Source of the DNA: a virus
IMG/VR virus record: IMGVR_UViG_3300027152_000019
Coordinates: 1 to 22,786 of that record
Length of the DNA stretch: 22,786 nucleotides
Reading direction: 5' to 3' (one strand)
A model generated the notes under the pieces. It ran no database searches, was not told the DNA's origin, and saw only the letters and a list, made by a program, of their open reading frames with translations. This document shows positions 3,953 through 20,471 of the stretch, piece after piece. The position numbers and the translations under genes were made by a program. Each line of letters opens with the position of its first letter. Within the stretch, counting starts at the first letter, position 1.

Positions 3953-5506
3953 ATGGCGAAAAAGACAAGTAAGAAACCTTACAGGTTCCGCCAAGCCAGA
4001 AAAGACGCTAAATCTGCATCAAAGAATACTTTCAAGGGAAACAAAGCTTCAGGAACAAAAGCTAAAGTAAAAGATATTACTACAAAGCAAACACTTGAAG
4101 ATAGAGAAGCCCTTAAGGAATTAAGCGATGCAAAGAAGCGTCAGGCATCTGGCAAGCCTGATTATATCGTTGACGATAAAGGTCAGAAGGTTTATGTAAA
4201 GGCAACCGAAACTTCGGAAGAGCGTATTGCTCGTGACCGTCGTGAGGCTAAGGCAGCAGTTGACCGCCAATATGCGGATGAAGATGCCAAAGAAGCCAAG
4301 GAAAAACCAAAGAAGAAGACTGTCAAGAAAGCTGCTACTAAGGTAGATTCGCCAGCAAAGAAGCCTGCCGTCAAAAAAGCAGGTACTTCCGCTGGGACGA
4401 TAAGCAAGCCAACGCTTCCACCTAAAGATGTTATTGAAGCAGATTTTAAGAAAGCTACAGCCAAAACAAAGAAGCCAACTCGTGCAGAGAAGTCTGCTAT
4501 GAATAAAGCTAGATGGGCTTCTATGACAAAGGAAGAGCGTAAAAACTGGAGCAAAGCCAATGGCGGAGCACCAGATACTAAACCTGCTGCTACTAAAGCA
4601 GATACTCCTGCGTCAAAGCGTCCAACTCTTGCAGACCTAGAAAAGAATGAAGCCAAAGGTTTAGATGATGCAAAGAAGCGCGTCGCTGCAAAAAATCAAG
4701 CTCTAGCTAATTCTGCCAAAGGTAAGACTCAAACACCTACAGCAACAGAAGCTAAGAAGAAAGCAGCAGCTAATCCAGAAGGACGTAAGAAGATTACCGT
4801 AGATGGAAAAACTTCTACTGCTGATAAACCAACTGCTGGAAAACAAGCTATAGATAAAATGAAGGCAGAGGCTAACGCTAAAGCTACAAAGAAGGACAAG
4901 CCAAAGTTTAGAAAAACCAAAGTCGTTGCTAAAGGCGCACTTCTTGCTGGGCTTGTTGGCGAAGTAGGTAGCCTTCTTAAAGGTTCTACCAAAAAAGACT
5001 TTGATGAGATTATGCGTCTTGAAGCAAAGCTTGCTGAAGTTACTGGAAAAGAAGGAAAAGGCGCTTTTACAAGAGGTCGCCAAGGAGCTCAGCAACAATT
5101 ATCAAGCATTCTTAAAAACTCAGCCATGGGTCTTAGTGTTGGTAAAACCCGACGTGACCGTATGGACGAGCTTAATCGTATGATTGCTAAAGCTTCTGGA
5201 AAAAACAAAGAACTTAGATATGGCAAAGATGGTTCATCTCTTGTACCTGGAACTGCAGCATATAAGGCTGGTTCTAAAACAATGCCAGCTTATGGAACTA
5301 CTCCAACTGGTGGTGGTTCTACATCAAAAACTGACAGTAGATACACCGTAAAGAGAGGCGATAATTTATACAATATCGCTAAGACCGCAGGGTTAACTCT
5401 GGCAGAGATACGAGCAGCAAATCCTGAAATCATGAAGAAGAAAAAGTACAAGCAAGGCGCAATGATTTGGGCAGGAACAAAGGTTAATATTCCAAAGAAG
5501 AAGTAG
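3953..5506 (+). CDS. Lys/Ala-rich histone-like protein with C-terminal LysM domain
   Basis: This 517-aa protein has two contrasting parts. Residues 1 to about 320 are low complexity and dominated by Lys, Ala, Thr and Pro, with repeats of KKA, AKK and TK type resembling histone H1 tails. Within it MNKARWASMTKEERKNWSK (183-201) looks like a short ordered helical segment. A hydrophobic patch (about 324-343, GALLAGLVGEVGSLL) and a helical stretch follow. The end (about 464-517) is a LysM domain, a fold that binds N-acetylglucosamine polymers such as peptidoglycan, recognisable by YTVKRGDNLYNIAK and a closing WAGTKVNIP. No hydrolase domain is visible. Placement between portal and capsid genes suggests a virion protein. 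A basic region that could bind DNA joined to a wall-binding end would fit a packaged, ejected protein, but that is inference. ATG 3953 is preceded by AAGGA. Confidence 0.85.
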   Translation: MAKKTSKKPYRFRQARKDAKSASKNTFKGNKASGTKAKVKDITTKQTLEDREALKELSDAKKRQASGKPDYIVDDKGQKVYVKATETSEERIARDRREAKAAVDRQYADEDAKEAKEKPKKKTVKKAATKVDSPAKKPAVKKAGTSAGTISKPTLPPKDVIEADFKKATAKTKKPTRAEKSAMNKARWASMTKEERKNWSKANGGAPDTKPAATKADTPASKRPTLADLEKNEAKGLDDAKKRVAAKNQALANSAKGKTQTPTATEAKKKAAANPEGRKKITVDGKTSTADKPTAGKQAIDKMKAEANAKATKKDKPKFRKTKVVAKGALLAGLVGEVGSLLKGSTKKDFDEIMRLEAKLAEVTGKEGKGAFTRGRQGAQQQLSSILKNSAMGLSVGKTRRDRMDELNRMIAKASGKNKELRYGKDGSSLVPGTAAYKAGSKTMPAYGTTPTGGGSTSKTDSRYTVKRGDNLYNIAKTAGLTLAEIRAANPEIMKKKKYKQGAMIWAGTKVNIPKKK

Positions 5507-5514
5507 GTAAATAA

Positions 5515-5928
5515 ATGTCAATGATGCAGCCATCTGGTCCAGGTAAGTTTGCTAAACGTACTGACCGACAAGGCATAAAAAGACTTCCTGATGCTGCCTA
5601 CGGCGAGCAAAAAGAATTTCAAGAACAACAGCAGGGTGCGCCCATGGCTAGGTCTAATCAACCACAGCCAACTGCCAACCCGATGGCTGGCATCGTTCCA
5701 TTAAATGCACCAACCCAAAGACCAGATGAGCCTGTTACTACAGGCGTAGATATCGGTCCTGGTGCTGGCAGAGAGATACTTGGAATGAAAAGTCCAATTG
5801 ATAATCAGTTACAAGATTTATCAAAGTTATCTAAATACATGCCACTATTTATGCAATATGCGGATTCCCCACAATCAACTGGGACTATGAAAGCTTTTGT
5901 TAAGTATTTACGGAGTCAATCAGAGTGA
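5515..5928 (+). CDS. Unknown 137-aa Pro/Gln-rich protein of the structural block
   Basis: I do not recognise this protein. Residues 1 to about 75 are Gln, Pro and Met rich and look disordered. Residues about 75-137 contain a more ordered segment, including GVDIGPGAGREILGMKSP and a helical end with SKLSKYMPLFMQYAD. It lacks cysteine. ATG 5515 lies 8 nt after the LysM gene stop, with an AGTAGGT-like Shine-Dalgarno. Its own stop overlaps the GTG of the next small ORF as GTGA (5925-5928), so the pair is probably translationally coupled. A minor head or internal protein is plausible from position only. Confidence 0.8.
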   Translation: MSMMQPSGPGKFAKRTDRQGIKRLPDAAYGEQKEFQEQQQGAPMARSNQPQPTANPMAGIVPLNAPTQRPDEPVTTGVDIGPGAGREILGMKSPIDNQLQDLSKLSKYMPLFMQYADSPQSTGTMKAFVKYLRSQSE

Positions 5929-6101
5929 AGATAGTTAAACGGTTCGAAGAGAACCTTGAGTATCTTGGATTTGAAATGGCTCCAATTGCTTGGGATTTAG
6001 CCAAGTTCCCCTTCGAATCCGATGACGACCGAATCAAAGTATTAGAGGAACTAACGGCTAAGGAGGATACACCTAGTGTCAATAACAGAATGGTGGACTG
6101 A
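5925..6101 (+). CDS. Small 58-aa ORF coupled to both neighbours
   Basis: The ORF begins at GTG 5925 inside a GTGA overlap with the upstream gene and ends at TGA 6099-6101, 26 nt inside the next gene. The peptide opens KIVKRFEENLEYLGFEMAP and continues with an acidic, helix-forming stretch (FESDDDRIKVLEELTAKED). This composition looks like a real protein, and without it a 147-nt hole would sit in an otherwise gap-free operon. Its 3' end carries the AAGGAGGA ribosome-binding site of the giant gene. Function is unknown. A role as a small partner of its neighbours would be a guess. Confidence 0.62.
   Translation: MKIVKRFEENLEYLGFEMAPIAWDLAKFPFESDDDRIKVLEELTAKEDTPSVNNRMVD
6060..6067 (+). promoter_or_regulatory. 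Strong Shine-Dalgarno setting the GTG start of the giant gene
   Basis: AAGGAGGA lies 8 nt before GTG 6076 and is the strongest Shine-Dalgarno match I noticed in the window. It supports GTG 6076 as the start of the 1651-aa protein, in spite of the overlap with the preceding small ORF. Confidence 0.75.
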
Positions 6102-9100
6102 CCCTTCTATAGCCAAAGACCCTACCAAAGAACCAAAGTTATCCAAGGTTGATAAGTTCAAGAAAGATAACACTAAAGTTGGTGGCGTAGAACAAGCCAT
6201 TATTCCTAAAGTTGCAGAAAAACTTGAGTCTGCACAAAAAGGAAAATTTGGATTTATTGTTAATCCAGCTTTGTCATTGCTTACTCAAATTGGTGAAAAG
6301 GTTATTCAACCAGTAACTCAAACTGTTTCTGCTGGATTACTTACGCCTCAAGCTATGGCTAAAGGTAAGGGTGGCTTAACTGAAAGTTATCGTTTCTCAA
6401 GAAACCAAGCTAAAAAGATTTCTATGGGGCAGGCATTAGCAAGCGCCGTAGGTAAAGTCGCATCCCCTGTGCTTGACCCTATAACCGATATCTCATTTCT
6501 TGATAAAGACTTTGATGTATTTGATGAGCGCAAACGCGATAAAGCATTCCGTGATGAATGGGCTGGAATCCTAGCTTCTGGTGTTACAGACTTAGCGTTA
6601 GCTGCATTAGGAACCAAGGGTGCTGGTATGGCAGTGCGAGGCACTGCAAAGAAAGCAATTGGTCCGAAGCGTCTTGCTACCACAGACGATATGGATGTAT
6701 TCAGGACAGAGCTTGAAGAGATTGTCGCACAAAAAACATTACCTACGGCAGTAGAAGTCAAGACTGGCTTGTCTGTACTCGTAGATGACCTAGTAGCCGA
6801 AACAAATTTAACTAAACTTGCATCAAACCCACTGGTTTATGAAACATCTAACCCTTATAGAACCGCAACTATTGTATCTAGGTTGGATAATCACCAAGAT
6901 GTAGCGGATTATCTGCTAGCTGAACGTGGAGATGTTGCTGCATTCCAAAGATTCTTCGACCGTAGTCCGTTAGCAGCAGACCATATTGATAATTATGGAA
7001 TTACTGCCACAGGTCCAATCGATAACTTTGCTACAATAGGATTAGATGCACTAGACCCAAAGCTTGTAAGTAGATATCAGAAAATTATTGATGCTAAAAA
7101 GGCTGAAGACCCTAACCTTGCTCGCGCTTTAGATGATTTCATGGAGAAAGCACGTGCTGGCGTTATTGAAAGCTATCGACCAGGACGTTTTGCAGCGCTA
7201 GAGCAGATTGGTTTAGCTAAGAAGAAGATACAATCACAAGCTGCATACGGCGACCTAAAGATGTTTGGTCAAGATGCCGATGGTGGTTGGAAAACACAGG
7301 TTTATCAATCAGGTATTTACGATAGAGCAATACGTGTTATTGCATGGACTGGCTCAGGTCGTCCACAAGGGTATATTAATATTTCTAACCCACGTAAGTT
7401 TGAAGCAGCCAACGATTTACTGTCCGACCTTAACCGTCTTCAGTTCCTTAAAGGAGCAGAAGGTGCTAAATACAAGCGTCGCATGGTTGAGCAGTTTCTT
7501 GATGCACAAAGCGATACCCAACGTGCTATAGCACTTGGTCGTATCGAAGAAAGCGTTATGGGTCGTCTTGCTAAGTACTACGGTATTAATGAAATGCAGG
7601 ATATTGCAAGCACTAAAGAGGCTATAGACCAGATTAGACAATGGCATGCTGGTATAAATAAGAACCGAGGCGGTCTAAAGGAATACGCAGTTAGAAATGG
7701 TTTCATCCCAGATGAAGGCGGTGGAATAAACGTCACAAATTTCCTATCGCCATCTAATGAAGCGCAGAATCTTCCGATGCTTGACTTCCGTAAGCTTGAA
7801 ACTGAGGTCATCTTCAACGCTCGTCGCGTTGGTGGCAAAGGTACAAAGGTAACTGAAGGTCAGTATATTGGAGCAAGATTAACCCAAGGCGGTATGGCTT
7901 TAGGTTCTTTCTTCGATTTAGCTAACATGGTATTTAGTAATTTGAACCTACTTCGCCTTGCATATATACCAAAGAACTCAATGGTTGACCCATTTGCACG
8001 TGCAAGCATGGCTCTAGAATCAATGGAGCTCGTCAAGAACGCATCTCCTGGTATAGATAATGTTGTTTACAATACTAGTGTCCGTGCCGAATCAGTTAAA
8101 AAATGGATTCCAGGTAGCCCTGCATCAAATGCTCGCAAGCAAGGTGATGCAGCAAAAGCTCGTGTAGAAAAATACGTTGCGGATTTACAACCTAAGATTA
8201 CGGCACATGAAAAAGCCGTAGTTGCTTATGACGATTTAGAAAAATCATTAACAAAACTTACTACAGCACGTGATAAAGCTAAAGCTAAAGCGATGAAGAG
8301 TAATGACGCTGAAGTTCAGAATAAGTATTATGAACTTGAAGACAAAGTCACAGAATTACAGACCAAGACCGACGCTGCACTTGATGAGATGAGCCGTCTT
8401 GGTGATTTTATTAATGGTACTGCCAAGCTTATCCAGCGTGAGCGTAAGGATTGGGCGGAGTTTGCTAATACTCAAGGAACTTTAAGACAAAGAAAGACAC
8501 TTGGTCAAGAAGGCGAAACCATTACAGTCGATGGTAAGACATATACTATCCAAGGATTAGCTGACCCTAATGTCCGTGGCGCTGGTGCATACATGTCAGA
8601 GATTGATACCGCTTCAAACTTCTATTCAGCCTCTATGCAGTCCGAAATAGCAAGAAGGCTTCGTGCTGATGGTGCTCGATTCGTAAAGATTCCTCGCAAG
8701 AACCGTGAAGAATATATGAATGCGCTAGCACATATTGCTAACCGTCAGGTTCGTAACGAACTTGAGTTACCAGTCGGATGGATGATGCGAGGCGAAAAGT
8801 CCAACGCAGAGATACTAGAGTGGCTATATAGCCCAGCAGGTAAAGAGTACAGACTTAGGGTTTCCGAGCGATTTGGCGATGATATGCCAGCTTGGGTATC
8901 CCAAACAAGGGAAAAACTCAATGCCATGTATCCAGATGCAGAATTACGTAAGATTATTACAGAGCGTCCAGTAACATACCAAGAAGTAGATGCCATGTTA
9001 TATGGCAGAACAGACCTACTTCCAGAGATAGATGGACCTAGCCTTAACCTTCAAGACTTAAATGGGTATGAACAAGTTGCAGCAAAGATTGGTGGAGTAA

Positions 9101-11031
9101 CCGATGCAGCATGGAGATTCCTTTCACTTACCGAAACAAGGTTAGTACGTAACCCACTGTTCTTGTCTTATGCTCGTGACGAAATGAAGACATTGATTAA
9201 TGCAGCACAAAGGTCTGGTATTGATGTATCAGATGCCGTTGTAAACAACGAGATTCGTCAGATTGCATACCGTAAATCGTTAACTAGGGTAGAAGAAACT
9301 CTTTATTCTTCACGTCGCTTAACCAATGGTATGTATACAGCACGTTATGCAATGAGCTTCCCATTAGCTTTCTTTAATTCACAACTGGTTGCGCTTCGCC
9401 TACTGGCTCGCAACCCGATGAATGCTTACTGGTATAACAGTATTCAGCAGGCGTTTGATAAATACGAAGCTTATGAAGACCAAGATGGAAACACCTATTC
9501 AACAATCAAGGATGTTCCACCTGGGGTATCGGTATCAGTAAAGTATCCACTTCCATTCGGAGATAAGTTACCTGATTCTATCAAGACAGCTCTTAGACCA
9601 TACACTGACCCTCGTGGTGGTGGCATTAAGTTCAACCCTAAGCAAATGGAGTTTATGGTTGCAGACCCATCAGTGTCTTGGTTCGGCACAGCACTTATAT
9701 CCGAATTAATTGACAACGGATTTAACACTGGCTTATGGAAGAAAAACGGAGAAGAGATAGCCTTATCTCTACGTCAAACTCTTGGTGATGATTTGTATGA
9801 ATCCAGCATTCTTTATGGTGGCTACCCAGTAGAAGGTAAAAACCTTGCTGAAAAAGTAAAGAACACCATGGTTCCAGGGTATGTTCAATCATTGATTGAT
9901 TCAGGTAAATTACCGTATCCAGTTCGTACAGCGTTCTCACTTATTGGACTTGAAAAAAGTGAGCGTTTTACTGACGAGGTTTATTCTCAATACCGTTACG
10001 GATTCTCCGATTGGGTAAAGAATGGACGAGTTGGTCAACCACCGTCAATGGAAGATGCTGCTAAAGCAGCAGGAAATATGGCATTTATCAGGTCTGTTGT
10101 TCAATTCAACGCACCTATCTCAGCGACGTTTGACCCTGTAACTCGCTCTGCTACTGCATATTATGCAGACTTAGTAGAGCTGGCTAACGGCGATTATGAC
10201 ATAGCCCAGAAAATCATGATTGATGAGTGGGGAATGGATGCCCTGGCTCTTGTCGGGTCCAACAAAAAGAATGTCGCAGGCGTAGCCTCGACTATGAATG
10301 ATATTAAGGTTCTTCGAAATAATACAAAGTTATTACAAGAACTAGGTGAAACCAATACTAAGTATGCTGGAATGCTATCAACTGGTTATGGTGATATTTC
10401 AGGTACTGGCAGTGGACCAAATGATTACTCGACTGAAGTAGCCTCCATCTATAAAAGGATGAAGTTTGCTGGTGGGTTTAACAATACAATTACTCAGAAG
10501 AAGAACGAAGATGAATTAAGGAAGTCGGTTTCAGCCCGTGTTGGTTGGGCGGAGTTTCAGAAAGCTGTTGATTGGCGCAACGCCATGATGAAGCAGTATG
10601 GAATTAAATCAACCTATGAAGCTAGGTATGAATACTCTGGAATCAAAAGAATCTATGATGACATGGTAGATGAAATTGAAAATGATTACAAGGGTTGGGT
10701 AGAAGAACGCGACGAAGACCGTAAAGATTATTGGAACGGAACTATTGTAGCAGTTGAAACTATCACTAAAGACCTTGACTGGAGAGCCCATGCATATTCA
10801 ACTAATGACAAATGGGAAGAGATTACTTTCTGGGTTGGTAAAGCCCGTAGATTCAAAGATGAGTACGACCGACCAAATAACAGTGACGAAAGAAAGTTGT
10901 TCTTAAAGCAACAGTTTTCTCAGTTCCACTATGACTTCTTACAAACAGCATCTGAAGAGTTTGATGCATTTTCCACGAGGTGGTTAAACAATATGCCAGA
11001 ACTAGAAAATGAATACACGGTGAAAAAGTGA
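6076..11031 (+). CDS. Giant 1651-aa putative internal/ejection virion protein
   Basis: This is the largest gene here and makes a protein of about 185 kDa with no cysteine. From the N-terminus it has a hydrophobic or amphipathic stretch (about 58-90) and a second (about 162-187, GILASGVTDLALAALG). A long central alpha-helical region follows, with a Lys/Glu/Ala-rich probable coiled coil (about 690-795). Near 1080-1114 is an Arg- and aromatic-rich segment (MSFPLAFFNSQLVALRLL), a type I associate with very large phage internal proteins. The C-terminus is charged and helical with several Trp and Tyr residues. No catalytic motif for lysozyme, protease or single-subunit RNA polymerase was found by eye. 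Size, location before scaffold and capsid, and coupling to LysM genes suggest a protein carried in the head and released with the DNA. A structural tail role cannot be excluded. The GTG start has a strong ribosome-binding site, and the stop overlaps the next start as GTGA. Confidence 0.85.
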   Translation: MSITEWWTDPSIAKDPTKEPKLSKVDKFKKDNTKVGGVEQAIIPKVAEKLESAQKGKFGFIVNPALSLLTQIGEKVIQPVTQTVSAGLLTPQAMAKGKGGLTESYRFSRNQAKKISMGQALASAVGKVASPVLDPITDISFLDKDFDVFDERKRDKAFRDEWAGILASGVTDLALAALGTKGAGMAVRGTAKKAIGPKRLATTDDMDVFRTELEEIVAQKTLPTAVEVKTGLSVLVDDLVAETNLTKLASNPLVYETSNPYRTATIVSRLDNHQDVADYLLAERGDVAAFQRFFDRSPLAADHIDNYGITATGPIDNFATIGLDALDPKLVSRYQKIIDAKKAEDPNLARALDDFMEKARAGVIESYRPGRFAALEQIGLAKKKIQSQAAYGDLKMFGQDADGGWKTQVYQSGIYDRAIRVIAWTGSGRPQGYINISNPRKFEAANDLLSDLNRLQFLKGAEGAKYKRRMVEQFLDAQSDTQRAIALGRIEESVMGRLAKYYGINEMQDIASTKEAIDQIRQWHAGINKNRGGLKEYAVRNGFIPDEGGGINVTNFLSPSNEAQNLPMLDFRKLETEVIFNARRVGGKGTKVTEGQYIGARLTQGGMALGSFFDLANMVFSNLNLLRLAYIPKNSMVDPFARASMALESMELVKNASPGIDNVVYNTSVRAESVKKWIPGSPASNARKQGDAAKARVEKYVADLQPKITAHEKAVVAYDDLEKSLTKLTTARDKAKAKAMKSNDAEVQNKYYELEDKVTELQTKTDAALDEMSRLGDFINGTAKLIQRERKDWAEFANTQGTLRQRKTLGQEGETITVDGKTYTIQGLADPNVRGAGAYMSEIDTASNFYSASMQSEIARRLRADGARFVKIPRKNREEYMNALAHIANRQVRNELELPVGWMMRGEKSNAEILEWLYSPAGKEYRLRVSERFGDDMPAWVSQTREKLNAMYPDAELRKIITERPVTYQEVDAMLYGRTDLLPEIDGPSLNLQDLNGYEQVAAKIGGVTDAAWRFLSLTETRLVRNPLFLSYARDEMKTLINAAQRSGIDVSDAVVNNEIRQIAYRKSLTRVEETLYSSRRLTNGMYTARYAMSFPLAFFNSQLVALRLLARNPMNAYWYNSIQQAFDKYEAYEDQDGNTYSTIKDVPPGVSVSVKYPLPFGDKLPDSIKTALRPYTDPRGGGIKFNPKQMEFMVADPSVSWFGTALISELIDNGFNTGLWKKNGEEIALSLRQTLGDDLYESSILYGGYPVEGKNLAEKVKNTMVPGYVQSLIDSGKLPYPVRTAFSLIGLEKSERFTDEVYSQYRYGFSDWVKNGRVGQPPSMEDAAKAAGNMAFIRSVVQFNAPISATFDPVTRSATAYYADLVELANGDYDIAQKIMIDEWGMDALALVGSNKKNVAGVASTMNDIKVLRNNTKLLQELGETNTKYAGMLSTGYGDISGTGSGPNDYSTEVASIYKRMKFAGGFNNTITQKKNEDELRKSVSARVGWAEFQKAVDWRNAMMKQYGIKSTYEARYEYSGIKRIYDDMVDEIENDYKGWVEERDEDRKDYWNGTIVAVETITKDLDWRAHAYSTNDKWEEITFWVGKARRFKDEYDRPNNSDERKLFLKQQFSQFHYDFLQTASEEFDAFSTRWLNNMPELENEYTVKK

Positions 11032-11846
11032 ATAAACCAAAACGTTCAGATTTTCCCAAAGGTAAAAAGGGAGATGAGCAATTAAAAAAAGCTCTAGTTG
11101 AGTATCAAAAATACTTAAAAGACCTTGCTGCAGATTTAGAACAAACGAACTTTGCGCCTATAAAGCTTCCTGGAATTACACCAGAACAGGGCATTAACGA
11201 TACTCAAGCTAAGGCTTGGCTTAAGTACAGTGGAGCAACTGCAAAAAAAGGAACCGAAGCTCGCAATTATTACGAGCAATTTATCGCAAGATTAAAGCAA
11301 GCTGGTATCCCAGAAAGTAAATGGCAGTCCGTATGGAACGATGCTGTTGATTGGACACAGACCCCAGGGTCTGGTTCGACTGGCGACCCACGGATGTACC
11401 TAAACGTATGGAACCCTAGCCAATATCTAAAAGACGATGGCACTGGACCTAAGTATGGAACTCAAAAACAACGTACTGAAACCACTACAAAATATGGTCC
11501 TTCCGATGCTGCGAATACCATAAACCAAACCTTTGAATCTGAGATTGGTAGAACCGCAACTAAAGAAGAGATTGATGCCTACACAATGGGTGCTAACGCT
11601 GCTGCTAAGAAAGAGCCTAGTATCTATGATGGGTTTACTACCACTACTGGTCCAACTAAAGGCGCATCTTTAGGGACCACAACAAGTAAGGGAACAAACA
11701 CAACTGGCTTTGACCCTGCTATCTACGCAGCTAACTTTGCTAGAAGTCGTCCCGACTTCGCAGAATCTTTTGCAACTAAAAACTTCTTAAAGATTATTGA
11801 GCGTCTTCTTAAAGACCCCAACGCTATCGGAACGGTGGTTGAGTAG
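11028..11846 (+). CDS. Unknown 272-aa protein coupled to the giant gene
   Basis: This cysteine-free protein starts at GTG 11028, which overlaps the upstream TGA as GTGA. The N-terminal part (about 1-130) is Lys rich with helical and Trp-containing segments (KWQSVWNDAVDW). A central helix pair around residues 165-195 contains ESEIGRTATKEEIDAYTMGA, a pattern I associate with structural proteins of actinobacterial phages. A Thr/Gly-rich linker (about 205-230) precedes a helical tail (NFARSRPDFAESFATKNFL). Its stop overlaps the next gene as TAGTG. It probably acts with the giant and LysM proteins in one particle component, inferred from strict co-linearity. Molecular function is not recognised. 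Confidence 0.8.
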   Translation: MNKPKRSDFPKGKKGDEQLKKALVEYQKYLKDLAADLEQTNFAPIKLPGITPEQGINDTQAKAWLKYSGATAKKGTEARNYYEQFIARLKQAGIPESKWQSVWNDAVDWTQTPGSGSTGDPRMYLNVWNPSQYLKDDGTGPKYGTQKQRTETTTKYGPSDAANTINQTFESEIGRTATKEEIDAYTMGANAAAKKEPSIYDGFTTTTGPTKGASLGTTTSKGTNTTGFDPAIYAANFARSRPDFAESFATKNFLKIIERLLKDPNAIGTVVE

Positions 11847-13159
11847 TGGCTGAAAAAGTAACAGTCAGGTCTGGTCAAACACTTAGTTCTATTGCTAAGG
11901 CAAATGGAACCACGGTTGCTGCGATTATCAAGGCTAACCCAAGGTTAACCACTGACCCTAAATATAACGGTGGAAGCACATTATTTTCTGGAACTGTATT
12001 AACATTACCTGGTAGTTCTAATTCGTCAATCACCAGTCCTTACACTCCAGCATCAGATAACGGACTTTTTACTGGACCAATACCAATTGGTACAACTCGA
12101 ACCACTACTGGTTATACGACAGCAGCTGCAACTACTACTACTACTGATACCTTTACCTCTAATCTAAGTATGTCAACTGCCTCACCTACCGCAGTCCCAT
12201 TGACAGCCGATAAATTATCAATGGCTATGCTTCAAAAGATGTTTGGTATTACGGCTGCAGTTATTAACAATGACCCAAGTCTATTGGCTGCACTTAATAG
12301 GATTCTTGGCGTTGATGGTGGTCCAATGGTTACTGACCCAGCGCTACAAGAAGCTATCGTCAAAGGCACATCTTGGTATCGCGACCAGACGGATACTCAA
12401 CGTCAGTTTGATTTTGCTAGAGCAACTAACCCAGGTCAGTTTGCTGCAGACTTACAGAAGAACGCAAGTAATATTGTTAAACAATTTTCAGGGATGGGTC
12501 TTACTCTAACCGCTGCAGAAGCAATTGAATATGCTAATAATATGATGAAACAATCTATTATTAAAGACGGCAAGGTTGTTAGGTTTGACCAAGATTACTT
12601 AAACAAGCTGATGGCTGATTCAATTAAGTTTGTTACAACAAACTCTATTGATGGTCGGGTTGTCTATACTGGTATGGCTGGCAAGCTAGAAACCATGGCT
12701 GGTAAATTATATGAGATGGCTCGTGAATATGGTTACGAGCAGACTACATCTAATGCCAACTTTACTAAATGGTTTGAGGCTAGCTTGAAAGGTTTGGTTG
12801 CTGGAACCCTAAACCCAGAAGATGTTAACAATGATTTACAAGCCAGAGCAAAGTCATTTGCTCCTGGTCTATCTAGATTTATTGACCAAGGTCAGACGTT
12901 GCGTCAAGCAGCAGACCCATGGTTAAAGGCAATTGCCGACACATGGGAAATGGATGTTGACCAGGTTGACCTTAACGATGATTATGTACAAAGAGCTATA
13001 AACCAACAAGATGAAAAAGGCGCTTTCACTACAATGAATTTGTATGAAGCAAAAAAACTTGCACGTCGTAGTTCTAAGTGGGATACAACTCAAACGGCAA
13101 AAGAGGAAAAGACCAACATGGCTTCACGCATTCTTAAAGACTTTGGATTCCTGGGGTAA
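11846..13159 (+). CDS. LysM-domain virion-type protein (437 aa)
   Basis: Residues 5-55 are a LysM domain starting VTVRSGQTLSSIAKANG and closing with LFSGTVLTLPG. A Ser/Thr-rich linker (about 57-115) includes a run of five threonines. The rest (about 120-437) is a mostly helical domain. Its C-terminal third (FAPGLSRFIDQGQTLRQAAD, then a segment with RRSSKWDTTQTAKEE and the ending RILKDFGFLG) resembles a conserved C-terminal region I know from actinophage structural proteins of unknown function. There is no cysteine and no amidase, lysozyme or peptidase motif, so it probably binds rather than cuts the wall. The start is GTG 11846 in a TAGTG overlap. It is followed 2 nt later by a second LysM-first gene, and together they look like a duplicated wall-binding module with different C-terminal domains. 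Confidence 0.85.
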   Translation: MAEKVTVRSGQTLSSIAKANGTTVAAIIKANPRLTTDPKYNGGSTLFSGTVLTLPGSSNSSITSPYTPASDNGLFTGPIPIGTTRTTTGYTTAAATTTTTDTFTSNLSMSTASPTAVPLTADKLSMAMLQKMFGITAAVINNDPSLLAALNRILGVDGGPMVTDPALQEAIVKGTSWYRDQTDTQRQFDFARATNPGQFAADLQKNASNIVKQFSGMGLTLTAAEAIEYANNMMKQSIIKDGKVVRFDQDYLNKLMADSIKFVTTNSIDGRVVYTGMAGKLETMAGKLYEMAREYGYEQTTSNANFTKWFEASLKGLVAGTLNPEDVNNDLQARAKSFAPGLSRFIDQGQTLRQAADPWLKAIADTWEMDVDQVDLNDDYVQRAINQQDEKGAFTTMNLYEAKKLARRSSKWDTTQTAKEEKTNMASRILKDFGFLG

Positions 13160-13161
13160 AC

Positions 13162-14823
13162 ATGCCAATATATGACGATTTTTATGAATCAGTAATTGCC
13201 ACACAAACCGCTGCACAGCAAGACGCAGCAGAACGTGCTCGCATTTCTCAAATGCAATCAGCAGCTGCTAATGTTGCAGCTACAACGAAACAAGTTCCAG
13301 TAAAGGTTACTGTTAAACCTGGTGATACGCTTTCTGAAATTGCTGCAAAAAATAAAGTATCATTAAAAGAAGTTTTAGAATTAAACCCTAAGTTTCAGAC
13401 CAACCCTAAGTATGACGGTGGCAGAACAATTTGGTCTGGCACTACAGTTAATGTTGGATATAAGAATGAAACAGTAACACCCCCTATAACCACACCAACA
13501 ATTACTGCTACTGCTACACCAACGGTTACAAGTACTGCTACATCTACTGATACAAGTACTGCTACATCTACTGATACAAGCACTGACACATCTACCGTTA
13601 CTACTACTGCTACATCTACCGTTACTACTACTGCTACCGCTACTGTTACCGCTACTGCAACAGCAACAAATACGGCAACAGCAACAAATACGGCAATGAA
13701 TACAGCAACAGCAACTTCAGACGCTGCAGCAACCGCTGCAGTTATTGAGCAGATTGCAGCTTTAACTAAGCAAATAGCCGACATGCAGGCTGCTGCTGCA
13801 GCCGAAGCTGGAAAGCCAAAAGTTACTGGCACACGTACGGTTCGTAAAACTGGTGGCGTTGTTGAGGTATATCAACAGATGTCCGATGGTTCTCTTGGTA
13901 ACTTAATTGAATTCTACAAAGACTTTGGCGCTAAAGATTCAGTAATGAAGATGTTTGAAAATACTGGACTCGGCGATACTTTTATCAAGTCATTGATGGG
14001 TGTAATAGACGCAGTCTATGAAGATAACATCATGCCTACTGACTCTCAAGTGTTGAATTCAATCTACAATAGCGATGCTTACAAGACCCGCTTTGCTGCT
14101 AATGAAGCAATTAAAAAGCGTATTGCCGAAGGTAAGGCAAGACCTGGTGACAGACTATTAGCGCCAGCCGAGTATGTTGCTACCGAAGATGGATACAGGG
14201 AGATTCTACAAGAGGCTGGATTACCTACTGGTTTCTATGACCAAGCAGAAGACTTTACTAATTTAATTTCTAACGCAATAAGCGTGGGCGAACTTACCTC
14301 ACGAGTCAACATTGCCCAGAAAGCACTACAAACAGCAGACCAAGAAATTGTTAAAGCACTTAAAGATTATTACGGTCTATCAACTGGTGACTTAGTTTCC
14401 TATCTACTGGATAAGGATAAAGCTTTTAGAGCTATCGACTCTCGCTTCACGTATGCAACAGAAGATGCGAAGTTAATGTATACATCTGCTGAAGTCGGCG
14501 CAGATGCAACCCGTGCAGGATTTAATACAGGTATCTCTAGAGGATTTGCCGAAGAGATTACCAAGGCTGGTAAGGCAAAGTCTGCCGAAGCAGCTTTCCA
14601 AGGCGCAGCCCGTGACCAAGGTGATTACCGTCGATTGATGGAGCTTTACGGTGAAACCGCTGGCTCAGAAGATTTAGCACGTGAGTCACTCGGTCTTGCA
14701 GGTGGTGCTTCAGTTGGTATTAAGACTAAGAAACTTGCTTCTAAGGAACGAGCTAAGTTCCAGCAACGTGGAGCAATTGATAAAACATCGTTGGGTTCTC
14801 GTCTAAAGACACCTGACGTTTAA
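13162..14823 (+). CDS. LysM-domain protein with long Thr/Ala repeat linker (553 aa)
   Basis: A helical, Ala-rich leader (1-45) precedes a LysM domain (about 48-99) starting VKVTVKPGDTLSEIAAKN and ending TIWSGTTVNVG. Residues about 104-191 are almost entirely Thr, Ala, Ser, Val and Asp in a stepped repeat encoded by tandem 24-bp and 18-bp units. A helix rich in Ala, Ile and Gln (about 192-215) and a helical C-terminal domain follow. That domain ends in an Ala/Gly/Arg-rich stretch (AEAAFQGAARDQGDYRRLM) resembling the tails of phage internal proteins. The KYxGGxTxxSGT segment is shared with the preceding LysM protein, so the two LysM domains are probably paralogous. No cysteine and no hydrolase motif are present. 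ATG 13162 comes 2 nt after the upstream stop. This is the last gene before the scaffold-capsid pair. Confidence 0.85.
   Translation: MPIYDDFYESVIATQTAAQQDAAERARISQMQSAAANVAATTKQVPVKVTVKPGDTLSEIAAKNKVSLKEVLELNPKFQTNPKYDGGRTIWSGTTVNVGYKNETVTPPITTPTITATATPTVTSTATSTDTSTATSTDTSTDTSTVTTTATSTVTTTATATVTATATATNTATATNTAMNTATATSDAAATAAVIEQIAALTKQIADMQAAAAAEAGKPKVTGTRTVRKTGGVVEVYQQMSDGSLGNLIEFYKDFGAKDSVMKMFENTGLGDTFIKSLMGVIDAVYEDNIMPTDSQVLNSIYNSDAYKTRFAANEAIKKRIAEGKARPGDRLLAPAEYVATEDGYREILQEAGLPTGFYDQAEDFTNLISNAISVGELTSRVNIAQKALQTADQEIVKALKDYYGLSTGDLVSYLLDKDKAFRAIDSRFTYATEDAKLMYTSAEVGADATRAGFNTGISRGFAEEITKAGKAKSAEAAFQGAARDQGDYRRLMELYGETAGSEDLARESLGLAGGASVGIKTKKLASKERAKFQQRGAIDKTSLGSRLKTPDV
13528..13575 (+). 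repeat. Perfect 24-bp tandem repeat, two copies
   Basis: Two identical 24-bp copies (13528-13551 and 13552-13575) each encode eight residues of the Thr-rich linker of the LysM protein. The unit length is a multiple of three, so copy-number change would keep the frame. Confidence 0.9.
13591..13638 (+). repeat. Near-perfect 24-bp tandem repeat, two copies
   Basis: A second 24-bp unit beginning TCTACCGTTACTACTACT repeats at 13591-13614 and 13615-13638, with a mismatch only at its last base. It codes for Thr, Val, Ala and Ser in the same linker. Confidence 0.85.
13657..13692 (+). repeat. Perfect 18-bp tandem repeat, two copies
   Basis: GCAACAGCAACAAATACG occurs at 13657-13674 and again at 13675-13692, giving two copies of a six-residue Ala/Thr/Asn unit. 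A decayed third copy may follow (GCAATGAATACAGCAACA). Confidence 0.88.
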
Positions 14824-14965
14824 TAGATTCCGTTCCTGACCGTCCAGCCCAGGTAACGTGTATAAGTCTGGTAGTCATCACTTCTACGAATCACTTCCCC
14901 TAGTGAGGAGTACGTGTGATGCAAAACCCGATGAGGGTTCCACAACTAATAAGGGAGAAAAAACA
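14824..14965 (+). promoter_or_regulatory. Intergenic gap before scaffold, possible promoter and leader
   Basis: This 142-nt stretch is the longest non-coding interval in the window and precedes the scaffold and capsid genes, where extra transcription would be useful. A TATAAG (14861-14866) could be a -10 box, with CTGACC (14836-14841) as a weak -35 at 19-nt spacing. Further on, GAGGAG (14905-14910) sits 8 nt before ATG 14919, which opens a 21-codon reading frame ending at 14984. A short inverted repeat, TCACT (14891-14895) with AGTGA (14902-14906), lies beside that site. All roles are inferred. Confidence 0.35.
14951..14957 (+). promoter_or_regulatory. Ribosome-binding site fixing the scaffold start at ATG 14966
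   Basis: AAGGGAG ends 8 nt before ATG 14966. The same frame stays open upstream to a GTG at 14858, but that start has no such site, and the added 36 residues would include a cysteine and a composition unlike the rest. ATG 14966 is preferred. Confidence 0.8.
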
Positions 14966-15418
14966 ATGGCAGAACAATATCTAGAGTACGACTTCGAAGA
15001 TGAAGACAATGGCAGTGGAACTGACCTAGTTAAGAAACTTCGCAAGCAAGTTGATTCACTTTCCAAGCAACTCAAGGAACGTGATGAAGTTCTTGCAGAG
15101 TACACAACACAAAGTCATGAAGCTTCTGTTGGAGAAATCCTAGAATCTTTCGGACTCAATCGTAAAATCTCACAATTCATCCCAGATGATGTCGAGGCAG
15201 ATGAAGATGCTATCGCACAATGGTTAAACGAATACGGCGATGCATTTGGTATTGAAGCCGTTGAAGAGGGGATAGAAGAATCCCCCGACGCTCAAGTATA
15301 TGAGCGAATGTCAAGCTTTGATGATGGCGCAATGGACCCATACGTGGGTCAAGACATAGCTTCTCGTATAGCGAACGCAAATTCGCCAGAGGAGTTAAGC
15401 GCTTTTCTTAAAAGCTGA
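14966..15418 (+). CDS. Putative capsid scaffolding protein
   Basis: Scaffolding proteins guide coat subunits into a prohead and then leave it. This 150-aa protein fits by position, immediately before the major capsid gene, and by build. An acidic N-terminus (LEYDFEDEDNGSG) is followed by a clear coiled-coil stretch (about 19-48, KKLRKQVDSLSKQLKERDEV) and a second acidic helical half. The end is short (SPEELSAFLKS), without the strongly basic helix-turn-helix tail known from P22 scaffold. Such proteins vary too much in sequence for identification by motif, so the function is inferred from context and composition. The start is set by the ribosome-binding site at 14951-14957. Confidence 0.8.
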   Translation: MAEQYLEYDFEDEDNGSGTDLVKKLRKQVDSLSKQLKERDEVLAEYTTQSHEASVGEILESFGLNRKISQFIPDDVEADEDAIAQWLNEYGDAFGIEAVEEGIEESPDAQVYERMSSFDDGAMDPYVGQDIASRIANANSPEELSAFLKS

Positions 15419-15451: not shown

Positions 15452-16429
15452 ATGCCTACAACACCCGCAACGTCAACTACGACATCAACGATGTCGAACT
15501 TGATTCAGACGGCGTATGATAAGTATATCGAGTTTGCCCTTCGTTCAGAGCCAATGTTCCGCAAGTTTGCGGATAAGCGCCCTGTCGATGTAACAAACCC
15601 TGGTAATACTGTCGTATTCCAGGTCTACACAGACCTATCTCGTGCTACCACAGCACTAACTCAAACCCAAGACCCAGATGCAGTAACACTTAACAACACC
15701 AATAAGGTGAATGTTACAGTTGATGAATACGGCAATGCTGTAATCACAACTGAGCGTCTTGCTCTTGAGTCCCTATCCGCAATCGACCCAGCTGTTGCAG
15801 ACATGTTGTCATTCAACTTGCGTGACTCACTAGACTCACTCGTGTGGTCTAAGCTCACATCTCTTGCAACAATGCGTTATACAGGAAGCTCCGCTGCTGA
15901 TGAGTCAACACTCAACGGTGAAGACGTTTCAGCAAGCACCACCGCTCCATACATCTCTTCTGCTCTCGCACGTAAGGGTGTTGCAAAGCTTCGCGGTGCA
16001 TCTGTACAACCACGTGATGGTGGTTACTACACAGCGTTAATTCACCCAGATGTTTCTTATGACCTTCGTTCAGAAGCAGCAACCTCTGGAAACGTATCTT
16101 GGCAACTACCTCACACCTACACAGAGGCTGGCGTAGCCAACCTTTGGTCTGGTGAAATTGGTGTGTTCGACCAGGTTCGTTATATTGAAACTGCTCGTGC
16201 TGAATCTATTTCAGGTTCTGGTACATCAAAGGTATACGCAACTGTTCTACTCGGAAAGCAGGCTCTTATTGAGGCTGTTGCATACGAGCCAAAGACAGTC
16301 ATCGGTCCTGTAACTGACAAGTTAATGCGTTTCCGTCCCGCTGGATGGAAGGGTCTTCTCGGTTGGAACATCTACCGTAAAGAAGCTCGCTACGTCATTA
16401 AGTCAAAGTCAAGCATCGCAACTGCGTAG
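15452..16429 (+). CDS. Major capsid protein, N4-gp56 family type
   Basis: This 325-aa protein would be the coat subunit of the head, with an HK97-like fold. It fits the N4-gp56 family of major capsid proteins in length and layout. A Thr/Ser-rich N-terminus leads into a helix (LIQTAYDKYIEFALRSEPMF) and a beta-rich segment with the VTVDEYGNAVITTERLALES pattern. A core follows with ALIHPDVSYDLRSE and LWSGEIGVFDQVRYIET, and the protein ends in a C-terminal strand region with GWNIYRKEARYVIKS. There is no cysteine and no leader long enough for a delta domain, consistent with a separate scaffold gene just upstream. ATG 15452 has the Shine-Dalgarno AGAAGGAA. The stop is followed by a strong hairpin. 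Family assignment is by recognised pattern, not search. Confidence 0.9.
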   Translation: MPTTPATSTTTSTMSNLIQTAYDKYIEFALRSEPMFRKFADKRPVDVTNPGNTVVFQVYTDLSRATTALTQTQDPDAVTLNNTNKVNVTVDEYGNAVITTERLALESLSAIDPAVADMLSFNLRDSLDSLVWSKLTSLATMRYTGSSAADESTLNGEDVSASTTAPYISSALARKGVAKLRGASVQPRDGGYYTALIHPDVSYDLRSEAATSGNVSWQLPHTYTEAGVANLWSGEIGVFDQVRYIETARAESISGSGTSKVYATVLLGKQALIEAVAYEPKTVIGPVTDKLMRFRPAGWKGLLGWNIYRKEARYVIKSKSSIATA

Positions 16430-18650: not shown

Positions 18651-20471
18651 ATGCCAACAATTTCACGTTATTATAGCTCTACCGCAGCTAAGACAACACT
18701 GTCTAGTGCGGTTGATGCAAGCACGACAAGCACAAGCTTGACGCTGGCTGCTGCCACTGGTTTACCATCGCAGTACCCATTTACACTTATTCTTGAAAAG
18801 GATACCGCCAACGAAGAAATCGTAACGGTAACCGCCCTTGTTGGTACTGCATATACGGTAACTCGCGCTGTTGATGGAACTAGTGGTAAGTCACACTCAG
18901 TTGGAGCAACAGTAGAACACGGTGTTTCTGCTTTAGACTTTTCGGATTTTCGTACACATGAGGCTGGCACATCAGCACACGGAGTAACTGGAGATATTGT
19001 AGGAACTGGCGGAGCACAGACCCTGGCTTCTAAGACTCTTACATCACCAACAGTTAATACACCAACCATTGCTGGTGCAACAATCAGCGGTACGTTTACA
19101 TCTACCGCAACAATTACTGGTGGCACATACTCCACCGCAACTTTAGGTTCTAACCTATCTGCTGGTGGATTTAAGATTACAAACCTTGCTACACCAACAT
19201 CATCTAGCGATGCTGTTCGTAAAGACTTTGCTGACGCTCAAGTTGCTGCTGCTGCGACATCCGCAGCATCGGCAGCAACCAGCGCTACTGCAGCAGCAAC
19301 CTCTGCTGCATCCGCTGCAACGTCAGCTACATCCGCTGCTAACTCAGTGGCTACTATTCAAACATCTGCTACATCAGCTGCAAGCTCAGCTACTGCTGCA
19401 GCAACTTCAGCAACTAGTGCTGCTGCGTCAGCAACAGCTGCTGCCACTTCAGCATCCTCTGCTCTTACATCTCAAACTTCTGCAACCACTTCTGCTACAT
19501 CAGCAGCAGCGTCTGCAACAGCAGCAGCAACTAGTGCTTCATCTGCATTAACTAGCCAAACTTCGGCAGCAACATCTGCAACGTCTGCAGCAACAAGTGC
19601 AACCAGTGCAGCCAATAGTGCTACCACAGCTGCAGCATCTGTTGCCTCAATTGCAGGGTATGCAACCGCTGCAGCATCAAGTGAAACCGCTGCTGCTTCT
19701 TCGGCTACTGCTGCTGCTACATCTGCATCATCGGCTTCTACGTCAGCATCTAGTGCTTTAACATCACAGACCTCTGCAGCAACCAGCGCTACAAGCGCTG
19801 CTAATAGTGCGACTACCGCTGCAGCTTCCGTGGCTACTATTCAAACTTCAGCAACCAGTGCTGCTAACTCGGCAACCGCTGCTGCAACCAGTGCATCAAG
19901 TGCTGCTACTTCTGCTGCCAGCGCAGCAGCTAGCGCAGCAAGTATTGTAGGAGATGCAGCTGCTGCTGCTACGTCAGCATCATCTGCTGCTGCAAGTTTT
20001 GATTCGTTTGATGATAAGTATTTAGGTGCTAAAGCTTCGGCTCCATCTTTAGATAATGATGGAAACGCTCTAGCAACAGGCGCTTTATATTGGAACACAA
20101 CCAGCAATCTTATGTTTGTATGGGGTGGAGCATCATGGGGTTCAATCTCATCCTCAGCTGAAATCTTCCGCTATAAATATATAGCAGCTGGTGGAGAAAC
20201 TTCTTTCAGCGGGGTAGATGCAAACAGTGCAACTCTTTCTTACTTAGTTAACAAAGAACAAGTATATCTAAACGGTGTGCTACTAGTTCGTAACTCTGAC
20301 TACACGGCAAGCAATGGCTCAAGCATTACTTCTTTAGCTGCCTTGGCTGTTGACGACATATTAGAAATTATTACTTTTACTTCTTTTGAAGTCGCTAATG
20401 CTGTAACCCAAAACAACTTTGATACAGGTCAACAAGAACAAAACATATTAGCAATCATGGGGGTATTTTAA
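18651..20471 (+). CDS. Tail fibre protein with long Ala/Ser heptad repeats (606 aa)
   Basis: Residues about 5-85 form a beta-rich attachment-type domain (TLSSAVDASTTSTSLTLAAA, then VTRAVDGTSGKSHSVGATV). A Thr/Ser/Gly-rich segment (about 110-180) looks like a beta-helical or triple-stranded shaft. Residues about 198-449 are almost entirely Ala, Ser and Thr, in a heptad-phased repeat resembling the long shaft of lambda side tail fibre. The C-terminal domain (about 450-606) has ALYWNTTSNLMFVWGGASW and an EQVYLNGVLLVRNSDYT segment, common in receptor-proximal parts of fibres. It is probably trimeric and exposed. It starts 3 nt after the connector stop, and its own stop overlaps the next fibre gene as TAATG. 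No cysteine is visible. Confidence 0.9.
   Translation: MPTISRYYSSTAAKTTLSSAVDASTTSTSLTLAAATGLPSQYPFTLILEKDTANEEIVTVTALVGTAYTVTRAVDGTSGKSHSVGATVEHGVSALDFSDFRTHEAGTSAHGVTGDIVGTGGAQTLASKTLTSPTVNTPTIAGATISGTFTSTATITGGTYSTATLGSNLSAGGFKITNLATPTSSSDAVRKDFADAQVAAAATSAASAATSATAAATSAASAATSATSAANSVATIQTSATSAASSATAAATSATSAAASATAAATSASSALTSQTSATTSATSAAASATAAATSASSALTSQTSAATSATSAATSATSAANSATTAAASVASIAGYATAAASSETAAASSATAAATSASSASTSASSALTSQTSAATSATSAANSATTAAASVATIQTSATSAANSATAAATSASSAATSAASAAASAASIVGDAAAAATSASSAAASFDSFDDKYLGAKASAPSLDNDGNALATGALYWNTTSNLMFVWGGASWGSISSSAEIFRYKYIAAGGETSFSGVDANSATLSYLVNKEQVYLNGVLLVRNSDYTASNGSSITSLAALAVDDILEIITFTSFEVANAVTQNNFDTGQQEQNILAIMGVF
19242..19996 (+). repeat. Ala/Ser/Thr heptad repeat region of the fibre
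   Basis: About 252 codons of Ala/Ser/Thr repeat. The 11-residue motif ASSALTSQTSA occurs at 19452-19484, 19536-19568 and 19746-19778, spaced 28 and 70 codons, both multiples of 14. ATIQTSATSAA starts at 19350 and 19833, 161 codons apart, a multiple of 7. The copies use different synonymous codons, so the repetition is kept at protein level and is not recent DNA duplication. Confidence 0.9.

Follow-up and report, generated by a model that had tools for sequence, protein, structure and literature searches.

A LysM domain stands where Streptomyces podoviruses carry a wall hydrolase on a candidate phage delivery protein

To cross peptidoglycan, phages are usually assumed to need wall-cutting domains on their delivery proteins. 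The virus record IMGVR_UViG_3300027152_000019, which in its entirety forms the 22,786-base window analysed here (IMG/VR records may be fragments), raises the question of what LysM domains might do among such proteins when no recognisable hydrolase accompanies them. Three of its genes, all intact open reading frames (ORFs), encode LysM proteins: A (517 amino acids; 3953..5506, + strand), B (437 amino acids; 11846..13159, +), and C (553 amino acids; 13162..14823, +). They belong to a block that runs, entirely on the + strand, from terminase through portal, A, a 137-amino acid protein, a 1,651-amino acid protein, a 272-amino acid protein, B, C, and a scaffold-position gene to the major capsid protein. 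The three genes are flanked by the portal (PHROG 104) on one side and by the scaffold-position gene and major head protein (PHROG 7813 and PHROG 1357) on the other, in agreement with the portal-to-scaffold location given in a preliminary description of the sequence. We think it slightly better than even that all three proteins belong to the head and DNA-delivery block of an actinobacterial phage and that B is a packaged ejection protein, as C and A probably are too, attaching to the wall by LysM and not themselves cutting it.

The LysM assignment held for each gene. Against the Pfam LysM profile (PF01476, curated cut-off 20.9 bits), A scored 30.8 bits (residues 464-514), B 35.5 (residues 6-55), and C 31.3 (residues 50-78), the last match spanning profile positions 2-29 only. 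A six-frame search of the record recovered exactly three domains, those of A (5342..5494, +; 35.0 bits), B (11861..12010, +; 38.5 bits), and C (13306..13458, +; 35.6 bits; 13306-13395 by Pfam, the remainder via alignment to B). Thus, the preliminary description was right to count three LysM genes, to place the domain at the C-terminus of A and N-terminally in B and C, and to describe the linkers as Lys-rich (A), Ser/Thr-rich (B), and a Thr/Ala-rich repeat (C); the LysM identity was borne out by profile search in all three proteins and by the predicted fold of B. Protein A is also strongly basic (128 Lys/Arg versus 58 Asp/Glu) and could bind packaged DNA. The GDTLSxIA motif is retained in the LysM sequences. 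Two subtypes swap within one slot: the short subtype has ~44 residues, and the long subtype carries a KYxGG insertion ahead of the last strand. The three domains of the window are of the long type. An insertion of the form KYxGGxTxxSGT had been noted as common to the second and third genes, which were taken for probable duplicates. It is present in B (KYNGGSTLFSGT) and C, but also in A (KYKQG; KYKQGAMIWAGT), so it marks a LysM subtype and is no sign of a B/C duplication. We rejected that duplication, since the B and C profiles align over 52 LysM columns only. A LysM tree built on 51 columns set A apart from B and C, with the relations between B and C poorly resolved.

Only B among the three proteins was modelled, and its LysM is predicted to fold as beta-alpha-alpha-beta. 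The model matched the LysM of a Thermus NlpC/P60 protein (4uz2) with Z 7.7 and a root-mean-square deviation (rmsd) of 1.1 over 49 residues, and the N-acetylglucosamine-bound 7r1l with Z 7.4. By sequence, the nearest solved LysMs are those of Ecp6, LytE, SafA/CtCBM50, MltD, and AtlA, which are glycan-binding or wall-active proteins, and BLAST with a composed, consensus-like LysM query returned LysMs of Bacillus phages, mostly annotated as endolysins. LysM has, however, been described as a structural part in Mu, Milano, and A-1(L) (PMC11915804), and the domains of A, B, and C might likewise serve as docking points among these proteins or with the portal or tail, binding no glycan. Baseplate LysMs do occur among the fold matches of B, but they match less well (Z ~4.5-6.5, rmsd 2-3.6, versus Z 7-7.7 and rmsd ~1 for the best glycan-binding LysMs; differences in Z below 1 were treated as ties). 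Sequence and model together suggest that the LysMs are somewhat closer to glycan-binding than to contractile-baseplate LysMs, the structural scores being close and not decisive. The PF01476 match and the conserved motif also argue against docking, as does architecture: Mu gp43 and Milano gp25, too, are LysM-fold products of phage structural genes, but they are structural components of contractile tail baseplates, whereas the LysMs of the window are dispensable terminal domains, tethered by linkers to head-block proteins of a podovirus-related phage, and in B the domain sits at the position of the homologues' wall enzyme. We regard a docking role as distinctly improbable.

The evidence on position comes from the nearest annotated named phages, Streptomyces viruses of the subfamily Beephvirinae (Immanuel3, Manuel, FlowerPower, and Abafar), members of which have been shown by electron microscopy to be podoviruses (PMC9753666, PMC11536984). 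Their genes follow the order terL, portal, small genes, a 1,650-amino acid protein, a 270-amino acid protein, gp11/gp12, gp13, scaffold, and major capsid protein, as in the window. The N-terminus of gp11 is an NlpC/P60 domain (102-105 bits) and that of gp12 an SLT domain (24 bits; detected in only two of the three phages), each joined to one of two paralogous cores. The 320-amino acid helical core of B (12194..13156, +) is homologous to both (hhalign E 9.3e-24 for gp11 and 5.1e-19 for gp12), and the core of C is homologous to gp13. In B the homology begins at residue 117 (114), right after the LysM and linker; in gp11 and gp12 it begins at residues 143 and 135, right after the hydrolase domain. 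Profile comparison found no counterpart of the NlpC/P60 and SLT domains in B. In keeping with this homology, a FlowerPower protein was the second-best match in a structure search with the B model (E 1e-11); a second-look fold search, which barely tests the core, gave no convincing solved structure for it. As judged by these alignments, the LysM in B is in the slot of the hydrolase of the Streptomyces relatives; replacement is meant here of position and makes no statement on history. The two groups also differ in that no LysM was found anywhere in three Beephvirinae reference genomes, that the paralogues gp11 and gp12 stand where the window has B alone, and that the Beephvirinae endolysin adjoins terL, a placement not shared by the relatives of the window. 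No tRNA array was found in the window. The comparison points to a phage related to the Beephvirinae, a statement of relatedness and not of membership, as the major capsid proteins are only 44-47% identical.

One homologous core can thus carry an NlpC/P60 endopeptidase, an SLT transglycosylase, a LysM, or nothing, the headless examples being locus L050 and, in the cultured Planktophila phage F5, the ORF at the B position. B lies in the head and delivery block and has podovirus homologues, as would be expected of an ejection protein, and is a predicted virion component. In the mechanism that we propose by analogy with T7, the conserved cores of A, B, and C together with the 1,651-amino acid protein probably form an internal delivery apparatus, and the variable, linker-tethered terminal domain would face the host wall. 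The gp11 and gp12 heads of the Streptomyces relatives would cut wall peptide and glycan, whereas LysM heads would bind wall glycan, keeping the conduit in place or orienting it, as an anchor or guide. Because the LysM of at least B is at the exact position of the enzyme, it may grip the wall where the relatives cut. The window proteins may play a part comparable to that of T7 gp16, an ejected core protein with peptidoglycan-degrading activity (PMC6116005), as internal proteins in contact with the wall while DNA is delivered; however, the domain of gp16 is catalytic and that of the window proteins a putative binding domain, and no sequence relation was found. The wall-binding ejection or anchoring system put forward in the preliminary description is supported in part: a wall-binding part other than a hydrolase fits the sequence comparisons best, while entry without simple degradation of the wall is no more than a possible corollary. 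The strongest form of the idea, in which the delivery apparatus of a short-tailed phage has no virion hydrolase and gets through an actinobacterial wall by holding on to it with several LysM anchors, its binding heads being at the place of the relatives' enzyme heads, seems to us rather doubtful.

Alternatively, the wall might still be cut, with the LysM proteins targeting a hydrolase on another chain, either a domain of the 1,651-amino acid protein or a tail protein. LysM usually accompanies hydrolases, and LytE, MltD, and NlpC/P60 enzymes are among the bearers of the nearest solved LysMs. Moreover, the 1,651-amino acid protein (6076..11031, +; PHROG 10618), a mostly helical candidate for a large internal or ejection protein, belongs to the family of Streptomyces phage gp09; no function is assigned to it, and its model is of low confidence. 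Against a split enzyme, no hydrolase domain was detected in A, B, C, or the 1,651-amino acid protein by Pfam or NCBIfam, as the preliminary description had it, or in the 272-amino acid protein by Pfam; PHROG matches named endolysin or transglycosylase in the block were confined to the LysM segment and linker. A PDB profile search of the 1,651-amino acid protein likewise returned no hydrolase family, and a fold search with the helical model of its residues 1-1125 (mean predicted local distance difference test score, pLDDT, 58) gave nothing significant. The lack of a profile match argues against a hidden hydrolase in this protein, yet with so poor a model one may still be present. Among 35 proteins of a near-full-length, 41.4-kb relative (L061 record), none was a wall hydrolase by Pfam in the best 25 of 28 families, and across 16 relatives NlpC/P60 occurred once, at the endolysin position, and Amidase_2 not at all. 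We consider a split enzyme unlikely.

The endolysin position bears on a further alternative, that A, B, and C are not virion parts but assembly helpers, or late proteins of lysis or adsorption control, encoded within the structural block. LysM does occur on the endolysins of many phages. In the L061 record, however, a 168-amino acid protein with conserved SDHNTGxAxDL and HLHIS motifs is encoded just upstream of a 637-amino acid tail-region gene, and in the L070 record this slot is occupied by an NlpC/P60 protein with matches to PHROG endolysins. From the shared slot and from the conserved His/Asp positions of its sequence, the 168-amino acid protein is a putative M15-type endolysin, an assignment for which Pfam and PDB searches gave no confirmation. 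Given these endolysin-slot genes in relatives, lysis is probably served by a separate gene past the window end. A separate putative endolysin downstream of tail-fibre-type genes, and a portal-to-scaffold position kept across ~70 loci and, in the case of the B and C cores, in Streptomyces podoviruses too, make a role outside the virion very improbable. The slot itself alternates between the putative M15-like protein (phrog_32486, no function; L083:2177-2683) and NlpC/P60 (L086:2609-3124), beside the same conserved 635-637-amino acid gene, whose product (L083:2694-4607) has a sub-threshold match to the PorZ beta-propeller domain.

To return to a packaged, wall-binding role, the LysM modules behave as selected parts of these proteins. 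Scanning IMG/VR with the 1,651-amino acid protein yielded 70 loci with the gene order kept. LysM was retained in 61 of 63 relatives for A, 52 of 57 for B, and 39 of 53 for C, tallies that cover only genes assignable to a slot and include the window, fragments, and near-identical contigs. Pooled ratios of nonsynonymous to synonymous substitution (dN/dS) for the long LysMs were 0.25 (A), 0.19 (B), and 0.24 (C), and in B mean identity was 0.62 for the LysM, 0.63 for the core, and 0.28 for the linker. The kept order and domains, with dN/dS around 0.2, argue that the modules are real and under selection.

Several observations weigh against the role that we favour. L066 lacks LysM in all of A, B, and C, L050 lacks it in B and C, and the entire F5 genome has no LysM and no NlpC/P60 either; the LysM module is therefore not essential to the wider group. 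LysM folds can be purely structural, as in contractile-phage baseplates, and such folds are among the lower-Z matches of the B LysM. Scans of genome collections with the long-type LysM and the 1,651-amino acid protein found no bacterial host genome. Finally, virion location and wall binding are predictions from sequence and modelling. In L066, the most divergent relative, the A slot is an 880-amino acid ORF (L066:1090-3732) without a Pfam or PHROG match and without LysM.

LanE43AprE7 and F5 (OX376640, OX376641) are cultured Planktophila phages that infect freshwater 'Ca. Nanopelagicales' (PMC10202952). Their head-gene order is that of the window and their major capsid protein is 47% identical, but in their B- and C-position ORFs no LysM and no hydrolase was recognised. 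In a minority of F5-like phages, LysM is encoded by ORFs that lie upstream of the capsid gene (L111:7942-9354, L138:662-2182, L159:6227-7747, L160:2112-3632, and L162:1922-3304), five being homologues of the F5 C slot by motif, so the module has seemingly been gained or lost more than once. As for the host, the L061 record encodes WhiB (56.5 bits; L083:7926-8192), a mark of actinobacterial phages (PMC10202952), and its presence in a close relative points to an actinobacterial host; the window ends before the region matching this locus. The group as a whole is a large set of uncultivated freshwater viruses of Actinobacteria.

The comparison of NlpC/P60, SLT, LysM, and absent heads on one core appears to be new: in the open-access literature, which omits most subscription papers, we found no publication describing it and nothing relevant on LysM in freshwater actinophages or in ejection proteins. 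Such a core is a natural test of what the head domain is for, and existing Streptomyces phages offer a way to address the question. The phages themselves belong to a freshwater group that is widespread and has among its relatives the first 'Ca. Nanopelagicales' phages brought into culture.

The remaining genes of the block fit the same relationships. The conserved 137-amino acid protein (5515..5928, +; PHROG 8200) is a homologue of Immanuel3 gp07, and the 272-amino acid protein (11028..11846, +) is a remote homologue of Immanuel3 gp10 (hhalign probability 94%, E 9.6e-8). The scaffold-position gene (14858..15418, +) precedes the major capsid gene (15452..16429, +), whose product is 44-47% identical to those of the Beephvirinae and F5. 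Block families 10618, 6654, 8424, 8200, and 7813 are already catalogued in PHROGs, without function, so these genes were known as sequences. Farther downstream, a 606-amino acid protein in the tail-fibre position (18651-20471) has a long Ala/Ser/Thr repeat, which probably forms a coiled or fibrous stalk.

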